From positions 1 through 29,964 of IMG/VR virus record IMGVR_UViG_3300038439_000017: DNA of 29,964 bases; one strand, 5' to 3'. Shown one piece after another: positions 1,356 through 14,069 of the stretch (position 1 is the first letter of the stretch; every line of letters begins with the position of its first letter). A program made the translations under genes and the position numbers. The DNA is from a virus. The notes under the pieces were generated by a model. The model did not search any database. It was not told where the DNA came from and saw nothing but the letters and a program-made list of their open reading frames with translations.

Positions 1356-3226
1356 TAGAGATGCCCGTTTGCCTTGGCTTTTTGTATCATTTCGAGAAAC
1401 AGCGGATAGAGTCTGTTGACCGCCTCGCTCTCATCCCCAAACGAGATCCCGGGCGAGTAGGTCACATGAAAACTGTTCCCGCCGCCGCCAAACCCGCCCA
1501 CAGAAGCCGGCGAGGCATTGACGCCGGCAGGGGTCACCGCGAACCGTTCACCGCTCGTCAGCAGAAGTGGATAGGTATCGTCTGGATACCCGGAGGGAAC
1601 TTCCTCCCAACCCTTCGTTCCCAATGCGCGCCCGCTTCCAGGCCGCACATTTATTGCATTGGTTGTGTTTCGTATAACATTTCTTATTTCATTAAAAATC
1701 GCATCCGCCGTGATTGTTATTTTTTTGCTTTCCAGCCTTGCAATTGCATCACGAAGTTCGAGTGTTTTCCTTGCATATTCTGGCGCGTCTATTATGCCTT
1801 TCTCGTACGAGGCTTTTAGTAGATTTTGAGCGGTTAATGCCTGATAAGTTGCCTCGTCAATTGTTCCCATCGCGCGTGCCAGCGCAAGTTGTCCCTCGGC
1901 GTCCAGTCCAGCGGCGGCAGTCTGTAATAACATGGCTTCCAAAGTGCCTTGAATTGCCAGGGTTACATCATTTTGTTTCTGTTCGTTCTCCGCCAGCTTT
2001 TCGTTTAAATTTATAATTGCGCTGTTTTCGGGCCAGTATCCCCGATTCAATAAATCCTGTTTTTTGGCGGTCAATTTATCATGTTCGGTTTGTAGACCGG
2101 CAAGTTTTTCCTCGTTCTTTTGGTAGCTTTCAAATACCGCCATCGCCCCTTTGACAGCCTCTTTGTCAACCTCAATTAAATCCCCAACCGCATCGGCTGC
2201 GGCAGTTACTGCGCCGGCAGACATCTGAAATTCTGCGTCTAGCGCTCGTTGTTTTTCCAACATTTCCTGGGCTAATGGCAGATATTCCTGCCATCCGGCG
2301 TTCATTGGATCGAGCGTATCTCTTAGATATATAGCTTTTTCATTTAATGTGATCTGCTTATCAACAACCTCGCCAAAAATCCTCCAGCCTTCGAGCGACA
2401 TTGCAAGAAATTCCGCAAAGTCTCCGCCGGTATCGCCAGTTCCTTCCTTGATGCCATTAATAAAATCCAGCCACGTAGCGCCAAGCCGCTCGAATTGTGC
2501 GGCACTGTCATCAGCCAATCCGCCCGCCTTTTCGAGCATTTCGTTGCCAGTTTCAAGCGTTTTATTTAATAGGGCTTGTGTCTTTTCTGCCTTTGTTAAT
2601 TCGTCTTTTGATTTCCCGATGCTTTCAGCGTAGTCTTCGTAAGTGGCGTCCGCATCGATGATAATGCCGAGATTATCAAGAATAAGCGGCGAAGCCCTGC
2701 CGATTCCGCGCACAATATCATCAAACGCCTGTGTGGTGCTAATTCCCATCGCGCGCCCGCGAAATGCTGCAACTTCCATTAAATTTGCGAGTTCATTAGC
2801 GTCCGCACCTAATCCAAGCATCATGGCTTTATTGGCAGAGCCAATAATGTCCATTTCAGAGACCGTGCCTAGAGAGGCTGCTTTAACCTTTTCAACGATT
2901 AAATCCATGTCCCCACCAAGTTGACGAGCCATTTCGTGTCCGGCGTCTTTTAGCCTTTCAAGTTCCGCGCCCTCTTCCGAAAATTTAAAAACCACCACCA
3001 TCGCGCCGACGGCGGCTACAACAAGCGCCAGATACCCTTTTAAAGACTTTAAAGCGACTCCCATACCATCAAAATCTTCGCTTGTGTCATCCGTTGTATC
3101 GCCCGCCCCCTCAACGCTCTCTTCTAGCGCATTAATATCACCGATGGCCGTCTTGAGTTGAGCGGACGCATCATTTTGTAATGATAATATTAATTTAATT
3201 TCTTCTGCGCTAAGTCTGATCGACAT
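1355..3226 (-). CDS. Phage tail tape measure protein
   Basis: This 623-residue protein is the longest uninterrupted tail gene and follows the tail-assembly chaperones, the standard position of the tape measure. The N-terminal third is helical and acidic, with a hydrophobic membrane-type segment near residues 65-82 (LALVVAAVGAMVVVF) as in many tape measures. The region around residues 85-235 (RLKDAGHEMARQLGGDMDLI and following) resembles the TP901-type tape-measure core. Coiled-coil-like Gln/Glu/Lys stretches follow at 365-410. The C-terminus is Gly/Pro-rich. By the usual length rule (about 0.15 nm per residue) the tail would be roughly 90 nm; that is an inference. The start overlaps the end of the frameshifted chaperone by 17 nt. 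Confidence 0.88.
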   Translation of the reverse strand: MSIRLSAEEIKLILSLQNDASAQLKTAIGDINALEESVEGAGDTTDDTSEDFDGMGVALKSLKGYLALVVAAVGAMVVVFKFSEEGAELERLKDAGHEMARQLGGDMDLIVEKVKAASLGTVSEMDIIGSANKAMMLGLGADANELANLMEVAAFRGRAMGISTTQAFDDIVRGIGRASPLILDNLGIIIDADATYEDYAESIGKSKDELTKAEKTQALLNKTLETGNEMLEKAGGLADDSAAQFERLGATWLDFINGIKEGTGDTGGDFAEFLAMSLEGWRIFGEVVDKQITLNEKAIYLRDTLDPMNAGWQEYLPLAQEMLEKQRALDAEFQMSAGAVTAAADAVGDLIEVDKEAVKGAMAVFESYQKNEEKLAGLQTEHDKLTAKKQDLLNRGYWPENSAIINLNEKLAENEQKQNDVTLAIQGTLEAMLLQTAAAGLDAEGQLALARAMGTIDEATYQALTAQNLLKASYEKGIIDAPEYARKTLELRDAIARLESKKITITADAIFNEIRNVIRNTTNAINVRPGSGRALGTKGWEEVPSGYPDDTYPLLLTSGERFAVTPAGVNASPASVGGFGGGGNSFHVTYSPGISFGDESEAVNRLYPLFLEMIQKAKANGHL

Positions 3227-3850
3227 CTAAACTCCAAACATATTCCATGAATTTCACTATGTCTTTGTTCGCGTTCATCCACTTTATCAATCCATCACCG
3301 CTCAAACCGGCATTTGCGCTTTTCCACGCATTGATCGCATTATGAACGTTCAGCAGGTTTTTTATATTGCGCAGCAACTGTATTGGCTGATCGTATAAGC
3401 CGCCTGAAAACGGGGATGTATTAAAGCGTACCCAATCCAAACCAAGCGATAATTCATAAGGCGGAGCAGGCTGGAGCAGGTTTCCATCGTCGTCTTTCAG
3501 TCCCTGTGTCCATCTTGCCGCCGCCTTGATCAGTTTGGGTCGGTTGGCGCGGTAGTAACCTTTTTAACATGATCGCGCACCTGGTCTGCCAGCCACTCCA
3601 CTACATAGGGCTTTAATTCGCCGATCTCTTCAACGGTTACGCCCGTCAAAAAGCCGGCTTTGACAGCGGCGCGGACGGTCTCACCGCGAGTAACCGAAGA
3701 GGCAGAAACGCCCGTACCACCGTCGAATTCTGTATAAGCAAGTTTGGCGGCCTTGATAACCTGTGGTTGATATTCCTCGAACTGCGCCTGTGAAAAATCA
3801 TGCAGATTGATCGTCAGGCCATATTTCGATTTCGTCTCTAAAACATCCAT
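3210..3850 (-). CDS. Tail assembly chaperone, -1 frameshift product (gpGT-like)
   Basis: Ribosomes that slip back one base at the CCCAAAC site (3539-3533) avoid the TGA that immediately follows and enter a second open frame ending at 3210. This gives a longer protein that shares its N-terminus with the short chaperone. The new frame has no stop across the junction (it continues LIKAAARWTQGLKDDDG) and contains the segment seen as a separate ORF at 3440-3210, whose apparent start is only a TTG without a ribosome site. In lambda-like siphoviruses G and GT bind the tape measure and recruit tail-tube subunits. Position between the major tail protein and the tape measure fits exactly. Confidence 0.8.
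3530..3850 (-). CDS. Tail assembly chaperone, short form (gpG-like)
   Basis: Zero-frame protein of 106 residues. I chose the ATG at 3850 because GGAGG lies at the usual distance upstream; an in-frame GTG at 3856 overlaps that ribosome site and is unlikely. The sequence is small and acidic/helical, starts MDVLETKSKYGLTINLHDFS, and ends in TAPTDPN directly at the slippery site. It sits between the major tail protein and the tape measure. No catalytic motif is expected or seen. Confidence 0.78.
   Translation of the reverse strand: MDVLETKSKYGLTINLHDFSQAQFEEYQPQVIKAAKLAYTEFDGGTGVSASSVTRGETVRAAVKAGFLTGVTVEEIGELKPYVVEWLADQVRDHVKKVTTAPTDPN
3533..3539 (-). promoter_or_regulatory. -1 programmed ribosomal frameshift slippery heptamer
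   Basis: On the minus strand the sequence reads C CCA AAC, a canonical X-XXY-YYZ heptamer, and the next zero-frame codon is the stop TGA (3532-3530). After a -1 slip both tRNAs re-pair on CCC and AAA and reading continues CTG ATC AAG into the open downstream frame. Slip site, adjacent stop and genome position all agree with the conserved tail-chaperone frameshift. Confidence 0.85.
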
Positions 3851-3894
3851 AAACACCTCCGTCCTTCCTAATCCCTAATTTCCTAATCCCTGCA

Positions 3895-4902
3895 TCACGG
3901 CACCGCTGCCAATTGATTCACCAGCAGGAAGTCAACGAATTTGGCCGCTGTCCCGTCGTATCCGCACTCAAACGTAATCTTGGAGACGTTCGAGCCTTCG
4001 TCTTCATCGTTCGGCCCGGAAAATGCGCTGTACACGCCGGCCATATCCGCGCGGAAAGTCTCCTTGCTATAAGTGCCGGGTGTTGTCAGGTTATTACCCT
4101 CGATCAACAGGCGGATCTGGCGCGGGGTATTCGCCCGCCACAAGACACGCTCCGCAGCGGTCGCGGCATTGTGCAGCAGGGTAATTTCGAGCGCCGCCTT
4201 CGCCCCGATGAAGTCCATGAAACTGAAATACAAATTACCTTCCCCTGTAAATTGCGCTTTCAGCCCGGTCGTCACCTTGAGCTTCGCCTCGATCCATCCA
4301 TTCACGATCTGGGTCGTTCCTATCGCGCCGCCCACATTATCAATGTACAGCTTGCTCTTGTTGAACAGCATCTCGCTCACGGTCGGGACGCTCAACGCGC
4401 CTGTAAAGGCGGAGACAATCGCCTGCCGGCCCCGCCAGTTCGATTGCAGCATCCAGCCTTCGTTTTTCTTGCCGCTCAGCTCGAAATCAACCACGAACCC
4501 ATACTCGATCTCTTCAACGACCTTGTTGTCTCCGCCTTCGATGGTATAGGTCTTGGTCGCGTTGACATCGCCCGATGGCAGCGGATAGGCATTCACAAAG
4601 CCCGTCCCAACGCCATCCGCCACAGGCGTGACCGTCTTCACGCCCGCCTCCATTACATGTTGGATTTGCTGAAAAGTCGCCTCCACCGCGGGGAACGCCA
4701 GGCTTGCCAGAAGGCTCGGCGTATATTGGCGCGTCGTTATGGCGGAAAACCCGACATTCTCCTCGGGCCTCACCTGCACCCGCTCGTCATTCGGCATCAC
4801 CGCCGGCCCGCGCCAGATCGTGGTAGCAGGAATCGCCGTCCCTGGCGTGGCCTCACGCCCGAGCTGGATTTTTCTTAGGGTCTTTACACCTGAAGTAGCC
4901 AT
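3895..4902 (-). CDS. Major tail (tube) protein
   Basis: This 335-residue protein starts MATSGVKTLRKIQLGREATP, a typical opening for siphovirus tail-tube subunits, which often begin with a short N-terminal stretch mentioning input template values such as PGTAIPA. The rest is beta-rich, without transmembrane segments or enzymatic motifs. It lies between the neck/tail-completion genes and the tail chaperones, the expected slot for the tube protein. Its ATG overlaps the previous stop (TAATG). An antisense frame of 321 codons across it is a shadow and is not annotated. Confidence 0.8.
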   Translation of the reverse strand: MATSGVKTLRKIQLGREATPGTAIPATTIWRGPAVMPNDERVQVRPEENVGFSAITTRQYTPSLLASLAFPAVEATFQQIQHVMEAGVKTVTPVADGVGTGFVNAYPLPSGDVNATKTYTIEGGDNKVVEEIEYGFVVDFELSGKKNEGWMLQSNWRGRQAIVSAFTGALSVPTVSEMLFNKSKLYIDNVGGAIGTTQIVNGWIEAKLKVTTGLKAQFTGEGNLYFSFMDFIGAKAALEITLLHNAATAAERVLWRANTPRQIRLLIEGNNLTTPGTYSKETFRADMAGVYSAFSGPNDEDEGSNVSKITFECGYDGTAAKFVDFLLVNQLAAVP

Positions 4903-10099: not shown

Positions 10100-10294
10100 C
10101 TATTCGTTGTCACTATTCATGATGTCAATCGCCTGCTCAACGATCTCCCTGTGATCAAACGCATAATGGATGATCAACAGGTTCGCACCGACCACTTCCA
10201 CCATCGGGTCACACGGGCAATCCGTTCCGACCGTGACATGTTCGCGCAGGTCATTCTCTGGGTAAACGTGGACATCACCATCAGAGCCAGCCAT
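10100..10294 (-). CDS. Small conserved-type phage protein, unknown function
   Basis: This 64-residue protein begins 4 nt after the minor head gene stop. It contains HVYPENDLREHVTVGTDCPC and an HYAFDHRE segment; small proteins with a DLREH...C.C pattern are common next to phage head genes. The Cys pair and following His could bind metal, but this is speculative. It is the last gene before the strong terminator at 10008-9961. Confidence 0.65.
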   Translation of the reverse strand: MAGSDGDVHVYPENDLREHVTVGTDCPCDPMVEVVGANLLIIHYAFDHREIVEQAIDIMNSDNE

Positions 10295-10297
10295 ACA

Positions 10298-12136
10298 TCA
10301 CTCCAAAGCCGGCGCAAACAACATCTCCGATGCTTTCTCCACATCGCGTGGTGCGAACAACATGTCATTCTTGCGGTACTCGAAGACGCAATGGCAATTC
10401 GACAAGCATTCTTCCTCACCAATTCCATCAAGCGTGCCGATGGGTTGCCAGCCTAGGCTCGCCTGATCCAAACAACCATTGCAGTTGTGCACAACAAAGT
10501 TGTTTGCAATATATTCATGTACATCCTCAATCTCCAGGTTGTAAATCTTTATAGAGCGTGGTATAATTTGGTTATACTTATCATTGCTAGGGTAAAATAA
10601 AATATGCCAAAGATTTCCGACTATACCCATCCCGAACTTGTCGATTGGCGTACCTGCCCCATTTGCGGAAAGATAGGACAGCGGTGTATTAATCTCTGTA
10701 CTAAATGCAGGCCACACCTGCCACCCAGACCATCTAAAAAGGTTTGCTCCAAGTGCGGAAAAGAAAACCATAGTGTTAGTGGAATATGCAAAAAGTGTAC
10801 CGGAAAGTCTCTTGAAGCACATCGCGGTTTTATCTGTCATTGTGGCAACAAGAAAGATTGGTACTCTAAAGAATGTAGCGAGTGTTTCAAGAAAAGCGGC
10901 AAGATTTTCATTTGGAATAAAAATGATGTTTCGTTTCTTAAAAGGCATTACCCTGCACGTGGTGCAGAATGGTGTGCCAAAAGCCTTAATATTCCATATA
11001 AGCGGGTTCGAGATAAAGCCAACAAACTTCGTATCCCACTTTCTAAAAAAGCCACTCGGCAACTTGTTAGCTCCAAAGCCGCTGAGTACATGCGAAATAA
11101 TAACCCTTCCAAAAAGGATGGAGCTAAAGAAAGGTTGCGAAAACAAGCTCTTTCCCGTCCAGACATTATCGAGAAGCTCTTTCTTGGAAATGCAAAACTT
11201 CAAAAAGATAAACCATCTGGACTTGAAAAAAAACTTCATAAAATCCTTGATTCTTTGAAAGTTAAATACGAATACGCTGTAGTTATTAAACCCAACTTCG
11301 TTATTGATATTAGAATCGGAAGGTTGATTATTGAGGCTGACGGCGAATGGTGGCATGGACATCCACGATTTAATCCGTTGCACGAAAGGCAGATAAGACA
11401 ACAAGCCAGAGATAGGGCTAGAAATTCTTATCTTACTGCCTGCGGGTATATTGTTGAACGCATTTGGGATCGTGACGTGACGCCTGAGAACATAAGTACC
11501 ATTCTCAAAGATCACGGTATTATCTAAACAAGATAGGTTGTCAGCCCTTTTCCATCCATTGTCCGTAAGAAACGGATGGTTTTTTGTTGTTATAACTGAA
11601 TTCTCACCACTAGACACATTTAACAAATCGCCATAATAATCATTAACAAATGTCCTTGTAACCATTTTGTTTCCAAAGCGGGTTACAACATATTCACCAA
11701 TTCTAATCTTCTCTATTGGTTTATCTCCCGACGGCGTTTTCACTAAAGTGCCAGTTACAAAACAATGATCAGCCATCCCCAGCACGCGCCTTTCTTCATC
11801 GTATCCCATTGCTTCCATTTGTCGTCTGATCACCTGCTCGAAGGTTCCCCAGGCGGCGCGCTCGTAGAGCTGCATACGAACAAACAGACGCCCGTTCAGC
11901 CAGGCTTGCGGATTATCAAGAATATCCTGGACGAAGTTATCCAGGTATGCGTATTGTTTTTTTATCAGCGAGCCGATATAACCCCATTGTGATTGCGTGA
12001 CATTCTGCCTTCCGCCCATAGCGATCGCGGCAGCATCCACGTGAATGATACGGATATACTCACGCATGGCCGCCTGCCACTGCGCCACCGTGATCTTCCC
12101 ATCGACCAATTGTTGTGCGAGTGCTTCAAGGTTCAT
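10298..12136 (-). CDS. Minor head protein (MuF / SPP1 gp7-like) interrupted by an intein
   Basis: The 612-codon frame encodes an N-extein (residues 1-124), an intein (125-551) and a C-extein (552-612). Joining the exteins gives a 185-residue protein with ...LGMADH-CNGCLDQ...CLSNCHC..EYR, the Cys-rich signature of the MuF/gp7 minor head family, which links portal and capsid. The insertion is exactly before the first Cys of that motif, a highly conserved point. It is coupled to the preceding 112-residue gene by an ATGA overlap. About 308 codons of the frame are the antisense of the endonuclease gene on the plus strand (10604-11527), yet no stop codon occurs. Confidence 0.85.
   Translation of the reverse strand: MNLEALAQQLVDGKITVAQWQAAMREYIRIIHVDAAAIAMGGRQNVTQSQWGYIGSLIKKQYAYLDNFVQDILDNPQAWLNGRLFVRMQLYERAAWGTFEQVIRRQMEAMGYDEERRVLGMADHCFVTGTLVKTPSGDKPIEKIRIGEYVVTRFGNKMVTRTFVNDYYGDLLNVSSGENSVITTKNHPFLTDNGWKRADNLSCLDNTVIFENGTYVLRRHVTIPNAFNNIPAGSKIRISSPISGLLSYLPFVQRIKSWMSMPPFAVSLNNQPSDSNINNEVGFNNYSVFVFNFQRIKDFMKFFFKSRWFIFLKFCISKKELLDNVWTGKSLFSQPFFSSILFGRVIISHVLSGFGANKLPSGFFRKWDTKFVGFISNPLIWNIKAFGTPFCTTCRVMPFKKRNIIFIPNENLAAFLETLATFFRVPIFLVATMTDKTAMCFKRLSGTLFAYSTNTMVFFSALGANLFRWSGWQVWPAFSTEINTPLSYLSANGAGTPIDKFGMGIVGNLWHILFYPSNDKYNQIIPRSIKIYNLEIEDVHEYIANNFVVHNCNGCLDQASLGWQPIGTLDGIGEEECLSNCHCVFEYRKNDMLFAPRDVEKASEMLFAPALE
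10539..10567 (+). promoter_or_regulatory. Antisense promoter for the intein-nested endonuclease
   Basis: On the plus strand TTGTAA (10539-10544) is followed by a 17-bp spacer and a perfect TATAAT (10562-10567). It lies 37 bp before the endonuclease ATG and within the sequence coding for the intein C-terminal splicing block, so one sequence carries both functions. Confidence 0.7.
10604..11527 (+). CDS. Homing endonuclease, Vsr/EDxHD-like, antisense to the intein frame
   Basis: The 307-residue protein has three zinc-ribbon-like Cys groups (C18/C21/C32/C35; C48/C51/C62/C65; C78/C80/C91/C94), a helix-turn-helix-like region around residues 104-146 (WNKNDVSFLKRHYPARGAEW), and a C-terminal nuclease domain at 205-305. 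The domain carries VIDI (Asp235), IIEADGEWWH (Glu244, Asp246, His251) and a following RD-R helix, the layout of Vsr-type and I-Bth0305I/EDxHD homing endonucleases. The gene is A+T-rich compared with its neighbours, a sign of transfer. It fills precisely the interval between intein blocks B and F, in the opposite orientation. A weak AGGG lies upstream of the ATG. Confidence 0.85.
   Translation: MPKISDYTHPELVDWRTCPICGKIGQRCINLCTKCRPHLPPRPSKKVCSKCGKENHSVSGICKKCTGKSLEAHRGFICHCGNKKDWYSKECSECFKKSGKIFIWNKNDVSFLKRHYPARGAEWCAKSLNIPYKRVRDKANKLRIPLSKKATRQLVSSKAAEYMRNNNPSKKDGAKERLRKQALSRPDIIEKLFLGNAKLQKDKPSGLEKKLHKILDSLKVKYEYAVVIKPNFVIDIRIGRLIIEADGEWWHGHPRFNPLHERQIRQQARDRARNSYLTACGYIVERIWDRDVTPENISTILKDHGII
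11552..11585 (+). terminator. Rho-independent terminator of the endonuclease gene
   Basis: On the plus strand CCATCC...TCCGT-AAGAA-ACGGATGG forms a hairpin ending directly in TTTTTT, 24 bp after the endonuclease stop. With the promoter at 10539 this makes a self-contained transcription unit inside the intein. Confidence 0.75.
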
Positions 12137-12471
12137 GCTTTGCTGTATGCCCTCACGAACGCGGCTACCGCGGAAAGCGCTTCGTCCTGGTCAACAACAT
12201 GTCCGGTCTCTACATTTGTATAGGTCATCGTTGCCGCATTCCAAGTAAAACGACCGGATGGCTTTTCGCCGGTCTGCTGCAAGACCAGTCTGTCCTCCGC
12301 GTCCATCATGCCGCGGTATTGCGCCGGCGCGTATGTATCCCAAAGAGAAACGATTAGATCCAATTCTTCTGCTGTGGGTATCTGCACAATTTTGACAGGC
12401 GGCAAAGCCTTCCCCAAAGGCTTTCGATTATACGCTGGGATCTTCGCTTCAGGTTTATTTTTACTTGCCAT
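12133..12471 (-). CDS. Hypothetical protein between portal and minor head genes
   Basis: The 112-residue protein starts MASKNKPEAKIPAYNRKPLG, with a basic, Pro-rich N-terminus. The middle (residues 30-60) reads VQIPTAEELDLIVSLWDTYA-PAQYRGMMDA, which suggests a small helical domain. It contains WNAATMTYTN-type beta sequence and a helical end. The stop overlaps the minor head start (ATGA), so the two are co-translated. Family unknown; portal-adjacent genes of this size are often assembly factors. Confidence 0.6.
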   Translation of the reverse strand: MASKNKPEAKIPAYNRKPLGKALPPVKIVQIPTAEELDLIVSLWDTYAPAQYRGMMDAEDRLVLQQTGEKPSGRFTWNAATMTYTNVETGHVVDQDEALSAVAAFVRAYSKA

Positions 12472-12482
12472 TGAATATATAC

Positions 12483-14069
12483 CTACTGCGTGATAGGTTC
12501 GCCGGTTTCGGGATTATTTGGAGGAATCACATCTTCCTGCTTCGTCTTGATATCTGCCAGCTTCTCCGTCCCGATCCTCCCGAATTCAGCCGTATCGATG
12601 CCGGCCCGTCTCAGCACAGTTTCCAATGATACACCCGCCGCCTGTGCGGCGCTCGCCGCTTCCCACAACAATTTCTCGCGGGTCAATTGATACTCTTCGC
12701 TATTTTTCATGGATGTGATCTTCTCAGGCGAGTACCCGGCTTCCATCCATAACTGTTCGAGGGGAATGCTCAATGATTCGCGCTTATCCTTCAATTCATC
12801 CAGGCTGGTGCTGTGTTCCCAAAGCGCGGAAAACAAAATGCTTTCATCCAGTCCTGCGCGCCCGTACAGATTATCCAGCTTGCGCGCCATACTCATCACA
12901 TCTTCCCACCCGTTCCCAAATAAAACTCTACGCTTCTTCGCCTTGCGTTGCAGGGGTTTATCCTGTTGCTTTACAGTCTCTGCCCCCGCCAGTTGACGTG
13001 TCATCACAAAGCGCGAAACGGGCGTAGCCGTGATCTGCGCGGCAATTGCAATGATCTCGATCAGTGTATTCATCAGCGGCGCCACATCCGCGCCGTCAAT
13101 TGCATCAAATGCCGCATCGTTCTTCGACTTGCTTGTGCCAATCACCTGCCCGGGCGCGATCTTTAGCTCGTTTGAGCCGTCTGTCCGAAGCTCTTTTCCA
13201 TCCGTGGTCGGTATCCACCCCAGCGCCACGAAGATGCGAAAGCCTGTCGTATCCGCCGACGCGAGAATATCCACCATGATCTTATTGATCGCATCCTGCA
13301 AGGGGATGGCTTCCCACGCCTCAGGCGCAAGTCCTTCATTTCGGAAATGGATCACCGGAATACCCAGCGGCCTGGCATTCTTTCCCTTGCCGGATACCCA
13401 GGGGATAAGCCCCTTGCCTCCTTCGCCATAATGTTCCCAATCGTCTGAGCCGTACACCCAACGCTCAATCCGATCAGGATAATAGACGGTGCGGCGCATA
13501 CGGGTTAGCAATCGCCCGTTCTCTTCGGTCATCTCAGACCATTGTTTGACCGCGGCGACCGCCGGTTGGTTGATGTCGTCATTCTCGTACACCATCCAAC
13601 AACCTGTGCCATCCCCGCCGGCCTCTGTGCTGACAAAGCGCTCATGGAATGTCATGCGCGGGCGGCTGTTCTCAATATCCCAATCCACGATCACAAATGC
13701 TTCCCGGTCCCTCAGCGTGGCTTCATGTACATCGTTCTGCTTCGAGTCCATGCGATTCAACTGCCACAAGGTGCTTGCCCATTGGCTTTGCTTCTTGCTG
13801 CCTTCACCTTCGGCTTTCTCAGTGGTGTCAAAACCGACCACGTTCAACTCGTCCTGTACAGCCGTCACAATGGACTGGCAGATATTGAGCCTGAAGTCAA
13901 CCGATGAATTCAATGCCAGGAATTCCTGCGCGCGCTCGGTCAGGTGTACGGTCTGATCGCCTTTGTGATAATTGCGCGCAAGCTGGATATTGCGCTGCTC
14001 GTCAATGTCCGCCGTCAACAGCGCGTCAAAGTACGAGATCTGTATGAGTGTTTGTGCGGAAATAGTCAT
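12483..14069 (-). CDS. Portal protein (SPP1 gp6-like)
   Basis: This 528-residue protein follows the large terminase and precedes the MuF-like gene, the invariant position of the portal. The N-terminus (starts MTISAQTLIQISYFDALLTA) carries a YHKGDQ motif, and the sequence has an HFRNEGL segment and a long helical C-terminal half (QQDKPLQRKAKKRRVLFGNG) typical of the portal clip/stem/wing region. The portal forms the dodecameric DNA channel at the capsid vertex and docks the terminase. The final 40 residues are low-complexity and acidic. Confidence 0.85.
   Translation of the reverse strand: MTISAQTLIQISYFDALLTADIDEQRNIQLARNYHKGDQTVHLTERAQEFLALNSSVDFRLNICQSIVTAVQDELNVVGFDTTEKAEGEGSKKQSQWASTLWQLNRMDSKQNDVHEATLRDREAFVIVDWDIENSRPRMTFHERFVSTEAGGDGTGCWMVYENDDINQPAVAAVKQWSEMTEENGRLLTRMRRTVYYPDRIERWVYGSDDWEHYGEGGKGLIPWVSGKGKNARPLGIPVIHFRNEGLAPEAWEAIPLQDAINKIMVDILASADTTGFRIFVALGWIPTTDGKELRTDGSNELKIAPGQVIGTSKSKNDAAFDAIDGADVAPLMNTLIEIIAIAAQITATPVSRFVMTRQLAGAETVKQQDKPLQRKAKKRRVLFGNGWEDVMSMARKLDNLYGRAGLDESILFSALWEHSTSLDELKDKRESLSIPLEQLWMEAGYSPEKITSMKNSEEYQLTREKLLWEAASAAQAAGVSLETVLRRAGIDTAEFGRIGTEKLADIKTKQEDVIPPNNPETGEPITQ

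Follow-up and report, generated by a model that had tools for sequence, protein, structure and literature searches.

The window analysed here, a virus record of 29,964 bases (IMGVR_UViG_3300038439_000017), carries on its minus strand a head gene interrupted by an intein, the middle of which is, on the plus strand, a gene for an endonuclease. Very probably, this is a continuous cis-splicing intein with a stop-free middle combined with an independently expressed homing endonuclease of the opposite strand. The continuous intein frame, the complete endonuclease gene, the avoidance of stop codons, the strand-specific selection, and the recurrence of the layout are demonstrated by the data below; splicing, plus-strand expression, and cleavage are inferred.

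The minus strand of the window encodes a head-gene cluster consisting of the small and large terminase subunits, the portal, the precursor gene, the scaffold, and the major head protein. The precursor ORF (12136-10298, minus strand), located between the portal gene (12483-14069) and the scaffold/major head genes, runs for 612 codons without a stop or frameshift and was assigned as a minor-head-like extein plus intein from its open frame, gene order, and Hint profiles. The N-extein (11765-12136) is 124 residues long, ends in ...MADH, and was delineated by a match to phrog_24776 (residues 2-125, 2.7e-30) and an alignment with S-CBS4 gp013, while the C-extein (10298-10483) provides 61 residues beginning at Cys+1 (CNGC...). 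The window extein has no match to Pfam Phage_Mu_F, so the label ‘minor head protein’ rests on gene order and phrog_24776. Between the exteins, the intein spans precursor residues 125-551 (11764 down to 10484), or 427 residues from Cys1 to Asn. Its N-terminal splicing region (11528-11764) extends from block A (Cys1, CFVTGT) to block B (TTKNH, whose TxxH is invariant across homologues), and its C-terminal splicing region (10484-10603) contains blocks F and G (IYNLEIEDVHEYIANNFVVHN), which read YNLEI...VHN, followed by Cys+1. Cys1, TxxH, and the VVHN/C junction meet the residue criteria of a class 1 intein, and C1, T60, H63, H426, N427, and C428 are invariant among six intein homologues.

The minus ORF matches the PT-HINT (7e-9; 7.2e-9 for the N-terminal splicing region), Intein_splicing (2e-7, under the curated cut-off), and TIGR01443 (0.003, over the cut-off, in the C-terminal region) profiles. 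An AlphaFold model of the intein with its 308-residue insert, as the sequence-only reading had proposed, gave pLDDT values of 73-92 at the Hint ends (75-92 in the N-terminal and 73-88 in the C-terminal region) and about 33 in the overlap. The prediction agrees with an unfolded overlap between confident Hint ends, and its Hint part matches the solved gp41-1 and DnaB inteins; profiles and model together meet the Hint fold criterion. Joining the flanks produces a 185-residue protein that aligns unbroken through the junction with the intein-free S-CBS4 gp013 and scores 126.5 bits against phrog_24776 (residues 2-164) vs. 106.8 for the interrupted form. The empty site is uninterrupted in two intein-free homologues, L006 and L203, the latter reading RVLGRADHC/VDC there. 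The gp013 alignment, the gain in bit score, and the L203 empty site thus satisfy the expectation that excision of an intein restores the host protein. On the strength of the residues, Hint profiles, and spliced-product alignment, the interval originally proposed for the intein (10484-11764), with splicing blocks on both sides, is exact. Group I intron RNA was also sought, without any Rfam match at E up to 1 within 10200-12200, and an RNA-intron reading of the insertion was dropped for lack of an Rfam family in that region.

The opposed gene (10604-11527, plus strand) encodes a complete protein of 307 residues, composed of N-terminal zinc ribbons, a helical/HTH region, and a Vsr/EDxHD catalytic domain, as judged from the ORF, profiles, and fold. 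It spans minus codons 204-511, between blocks B and F, in the codon-aligned antisense frame, and the 308 minus codons across this interval are free of stops and frameshifts and have no predicted fold; both the gene and the open antisense codons had been read correctly from the letters alone. The plus ORF matches TIGR00632 (1e-6, under the cut-off) and DUF559 (1.6e-4, over the cut-off). A search of the PDB with the single plus ORF returned chance-level matches only, mostly zinc fingers, and a profile of 12 endonuclease sequences retrieved I-Bth0305I (3R3P, 1e-13) and Vsr (1cw0, 1.6e-6). Residues D235, E208, D246, W250, and H251 are invariant, which meets the criterion of a Vsr-like catalytic fold and motif, and Foldseek matched the predicted plus-strand protein, with a catalytic domain at pLDDT 90-97, to 3R3P and 1VSR. 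Thus, the endonuclease homologues on which the initial assignment depended do exist.

Putative expression signals surround the endonuclease gene. A promoter-like TTGTAA-17-TATAAT with an extended -10 (10539-10567, plus strand; supported only by 10/12 consensus matches) lies about 37 bases before the ATG, and a possible weak ribosome-binding site, AGGG (10589-10592), about 11 bases before it, is suggested by sequence alone. A terminator-like hairpin with a T run (11558-11580), likewise a mere consensus match, lies about 30 bases past the stop. Both the promoter-like and terminator-like signals fall within the intein. Promoter-like sites, again consensus matches only, also precede the endonuclease genes of loci L012 and L061. 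The promoter scan as a whole found 8 sites vs. 3.5 in shuffles, that is, an excess of sites in general.

In the codon-aligned antisense register, only TTA, CTA, and TCA in the endonuclease gene would close the intein frame. As the codon counts demonstrate, the minus frame could stay stop-free by synonymous choice of Leu and Ser codons alone. None of the 42 Leu/Ser codons in the window plus ORF is one of these three. The probability of a stop-free frame by chance is 2e-8 to 5e-8 given the gene's own composition, 4.6e-7 given the codon usage of 29 similar-GC relatives (0/200,000 recodings were stop-free), and 4e-4 given the usage of neighbouring genes; the two remaining antisense frames contain 8 and 25 stops. 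Across 15 antisense-intein endonuclease genes, intein-frame stops account for 0/521 Leu/Ser codons vs. 90.8 expected. The product of P0 for the 15 genes is about 1e-47, without correction for kinship, and the high-GC members alone (P0 0.01-0.26) are uninformative. Free-standing relatives use TTA/CTA/TCA at 51% (GC <0.35), 28% (0.35-0.45), and 18% (0.45-0.55) of Leu/Ser sites, and in-frame inteins together with a fractured locus use them at 44/122, 17/55, 16/46, 8/22, and 7/22. Similarly, the linkers of three same-strand control inteins (L324, L326, and L005) have 8, 14, and 12 antisense stops, respectively. Because the P values are uncorrected for kinship, strand-specific dN/dS is the stronger test.

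For lack of a close relative of the window endonuclease, dN/dS at low divergence was taken from other members. The inteins of Gordonia phages Barsten and Lennon align without gaps at 83.5% identity. Across the 197 codons of the endonuclease zone, the endonuclease frame has a dN/dS of 0.11 and the intein frame one of 1.22, with 51, 6, and 16 differences at intein codon positions 1, 2, and 3, respectively. The relationship is inverted on both sides, with dN/dS of 0.17 in the intein frame vs. 2.3 antisense in the 37 codons before the zone, and 0.36 vs. 2.0 in the 41 codons after it. Selection switches strand at the endonuclease borders, and Vibrio, Streptomyces/viral, and metagenomic pairs switch likewise, on smaller and in part saturated samples. 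In deep pairs, the first two positions of the endonuclease codons show the highest identity, and in all pairs the endonuclease protein is more alike than its antisense shadow, with changes at plus third positions. Together, strand-specific dN/dS and deep-pair identity indicate that the intein frame of the overlap is kept open, not kept as protein; protein-level selection there is confined to the endonuclease strand, and the intein-frame translation is a linker that merely needs to lack stops. The sequence-only reading had inferred that splicing and homing are encoded by two opposed, overlapping genes. Layout, stop avoidance, and recurrence support this proposal, but protein-level selection in the overlap acts on the endonuclease strand alone, and both activities remain inferred.

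To assess recurrence, alignment-based scans and phage records were combined into a sample of 161 distinct Vsr-like loci, 14 of which have Hint N- and C-blocks around a gene on the opposite strand. Thirteen distinct loci are Vsr-like antisense cases, drawn from uncultivated phages, a Streptomyces prophage, and Vibrio phages (the window, L009, L011, L012, L061, L207, L192, L126 of Streptomyces alboflavus, L182, L269, L270, and Vibrio phages 1.082.O/1.266.O and 1.265.O). The antisense layout thus recurs, and none of the 13 has a closed intein frame, an outcome that would have told against the initial proposal. The fourteenth locus, L253 (3833-4931), is a head-gene intein whose antisense gene was recognized by eye as HNH-type; the locus looks decayed on both strands, with a frame change in the intein and a stop in the endonuclease. 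A scan of the splice-site region retrieved the same loci and one intein-free homologue, L203; scanning 393 Streptomyces genomes returned only the case already known, and neither the viral contigs scanned with single proteins nor the plasmid scan gave any match.

The layout extends to another endonuclease family. Gordonia phages Barsten and SchottB have an antisense LAGLIDADG-like ORF inside a MuF intein, and Nordenberg, Lennon, Sitar, and Thing3 carry a version 92% identical to it. No Pfam family matched the Gordonia antisense ORF, so the LAGLIDADG assignment rests on I-MsoI (5.8e-4) and matches to phage endonucleases; in the same-strand control intein of Blubba, an in-frame LAGLIDADG was recognized by sequence. 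The deposited annotations of Barsten, SchottB, Lennon, and three Vibrio phages have no antisense gene at the intein. All antisense-endonuclease inteins found reside in MuF-type or window-type head genes (Phage_Mu_F matches the host proteins at 1.3e-10 in Gordonia and 2e-4, under the cut-off, in Vibrio), at two insertion sites discerned by eye: before CxxC in the window type, and before an HPN/CRC-like motif in Gordonia, Vibrio, and L253.

The antisense label requires six changes on a tree of 81 catalytic domains; well-supported branches force at least three of them. These changes, together with the LAGLIDADG and HNH cases, point to several origins of the layout, involving Vsr-like, LAGLIDADG, and probably HNH endonucleases. 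The nearest non-intein gene to the window endonuclease on the tree, in locus L007, is nested in the antisense clade. This endonuclease gene (2950-3870, plus strand) is convergent with, and overlaps the end of, an intein-free window-type head gene (3854-4507, minus strand) that reads ...ENHCKDC...; it still lacks TTA, CTA, and TCA. This codon imprint outside an intein speaks against the preferred reading; we infer that L007 is likely an escapee from the antisense state. On balance, we favor the broader notion that inteins overprinted in antisense form a general and recurring class of mobile elements, in which three endonuclease families entered phage head-gene inteins on the opposite strand, in the register where synonymous Leu/Ser choice can avoid stops in the host frame.

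The proposed mechanism can be rationalized as follows. The minus strand would yield one continuous precursor made of head protein, Hint N-half, a filler of ~308 residues encoded antisense to the endonuclease, Hint C-half, and head protein. The Hint halves would pair around the disordered filler and splice in cis to release the intact 185-residue head protein, while the plus strand, from its own signals, would express a separate Vsr/EDxHD-type endonuclease. This enzyme is inferred to cut intein-free alleles of the head gene, whose repair would copy in the whole element; selection works on the minus frame for the splicing blocks and on the plus frame for the endonuclease. One plausible benefit is an endonuclease that is expressed separately and untouched by intein excision, alongside a host protein that, unlike in fractured genes, remains continuous. 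As a counterpoint, the 308-residue filler, aromatic-rich in the window, might hinder folding.

Three other explanations were weighed. The locus could be a fractured gene, in which a split intein with separate halves splices in trans around a free-standing endonuclease gene and the open minus frame is accidental. Such an arrangement has precedent, since Dassa et al. in 2009 reportedly described fractured genes in which split inteins accompany free-standing Vsr-like endonucleases, and L060 in our sample has this structure, both halves being on the same strand and the gene separate. However, the window does not have two separately encoded halves but a single 612-codon frame, none of the 13 antisense Vsr-like loci has a stop between the halves, and an accidentally open frame leaves unexplained the avoidance of TTA/CTA/TCA, which L060 uses at 7/22 Leu/Ser sites. 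We consider this explanation very unlikely. Conversely, an ordinary large intein, with a functional domain in the minus-frame middle and the plus ORF as its mirror image, would account for the open minus frame and for some overlap residues that look conserved in alignment, but it is virtually excluded. No endonuclease family was detected in the minus frame, and its middle has neither a family match nor a fold, so the criterion for a canonical bifunctional intein is not met, whereas the plus ORF resembles Vsr/EDxHD proteins by both profile and fold. The greater identity of the plus protein in all pairs, the changes at plus third positions, and the Gordonia intein-frame dN/dS of 1.22 all point to the plus strand.

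It is also conceivable, albeit quite unlikely, that both strands were formerly coding and that the window phage now carries a silent endonuclease and an intein inherited vertically as a passenger. Recent selection cannot be tested in the window for want of a close relative, and decay is common in homing cycles, as L253 appears to illustrate; yet the window ORF retains its full length and the invariant residues of the catalytic motif, its catalytic domain is predicted at high confidence, and promoter-like and terminator-like signals are present. The continuous intein with an independently expressed opposite-strand endonuclease is our preferred reading.

Inteins are taught as having either an in-frame endonuclease or none. 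Like canonical bifunctional inteins (PI-SceI, with its in-frame LAGLIDADG), the window intein has blocks A, B, F, and G at a conserved host site, keeps the endonuclease information between B and F, and precisely restores the host protein, but its endonuclease comes from a gene of its own on the opposite strand instead of forming a domain of the spliced protein. It shares with fractured genes the endonuclease superfamily and the position between intein halves, and differs in that the host frame continues through the endonuclease gene, which is antisense. Nuclear rDNA group I introns can carry an antisense endonuclease ORF, similarly opposed to the host-gene strand; they splice as RNA and need no open frame, whereas the window protein frame must stay open. 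The catalytic fold and acidic/His motif are those of I-Bth0305I/EDxHD (3R3P) and Vsr, to which the window protein adds N-terminal zinc ribbons and a helical region, and unlike them, it is encoded antisense in an intein.

The sequence-only reading regarded an antisense intein endonuclease as an unfamiliar layout. Our literature search turned up no published intein whose endonuclease is encoded antisense. The layout is not unique to the window and also occurs with LAGLIDADG. Whether this is a first description remains open, as a 2025 preprint by Gosselin et al. on actinophage inteins may overlap; judging by its title (‘Actinobacteriophage Inteins: ... Non-Canonical Architecture’), it reportedly deals with actinophage inteins of unusual architecture, possibly including the Gordonia intein, and may have anticipated some of these findings. 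The nearest published system is ShiLan, a same-strand, out-of-frame HNH insertion in phage methylases in which no splicing domains were found; the in-frame translation of the related Pacc40 case looks disordered (PMC11855218). As in ShiLan (PMC11855218), the window endonuclease overprints a frame that stays open together with the host gene. The window does not meet the ShiLan-type definition of a same-strand shifted frame without a splicing domain: ShiLan is a third-frame HNH on the same strand, and the window endonuclease is antisense, inside an intein with a Hint domain.

If this interpretation is true, an endonuclease is free to be its own gene while every intein precursor carries a neutral antisense polypeptide, and an opposite-strand endonuclease may lie hidden in many ‘mini-inteins’ and in many inteins whose insert is of unknown nature. 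Long antisense double coding is rarely seen so cleanly in nature; the mechanism is visible as three codons avoided in one register. The layout is also an independent example of how overlapping antisense genes arise. In the cultured Gordonia and Vibrio phages, splicing, antisense expression, and homing are open to experiment.

Several other arrangements of related endonucleases were encountered. In the helicase inteins of Corynebacterium phage phi673 gp43 (L321, 1943-4453) and Pseudomonas phage MR14 gp44 (L322, 1976-4549), a Vsr-like endonuclease occupies the same-strand +1 frame, which is a second kind of overprinted intein. Salmonella phage S16 (L323, 1532-4258) has an intein match where gp114 ends, followed by an ORF (gp114.1) and then UvsW (gp115), and looks like a fractured UvsW helicase. 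Multi-zinc-ribbon Vsr-like endonucleases lie antisense to the start of DNA methyltransferase-like frames in L026 (2578-3414) and L038 (2614-3528), with no antisense-frame stops even at GC 0.28-0.34; intein blocks were not found there. A related multi-zinc-ribbon endonuclease in L016 (2632-3411) is convergent with a DNA methyltransferase gene and overlaps its end, also without antisense stops. Finally, in Mycobacterium phages Techage, Malithi, and Camster (L003, L004, and L205), an unannotated Vsr-like endonuclease adjoins DNA methylases, and the hypothetical genes called opposite it are probably wrong-strand calls.
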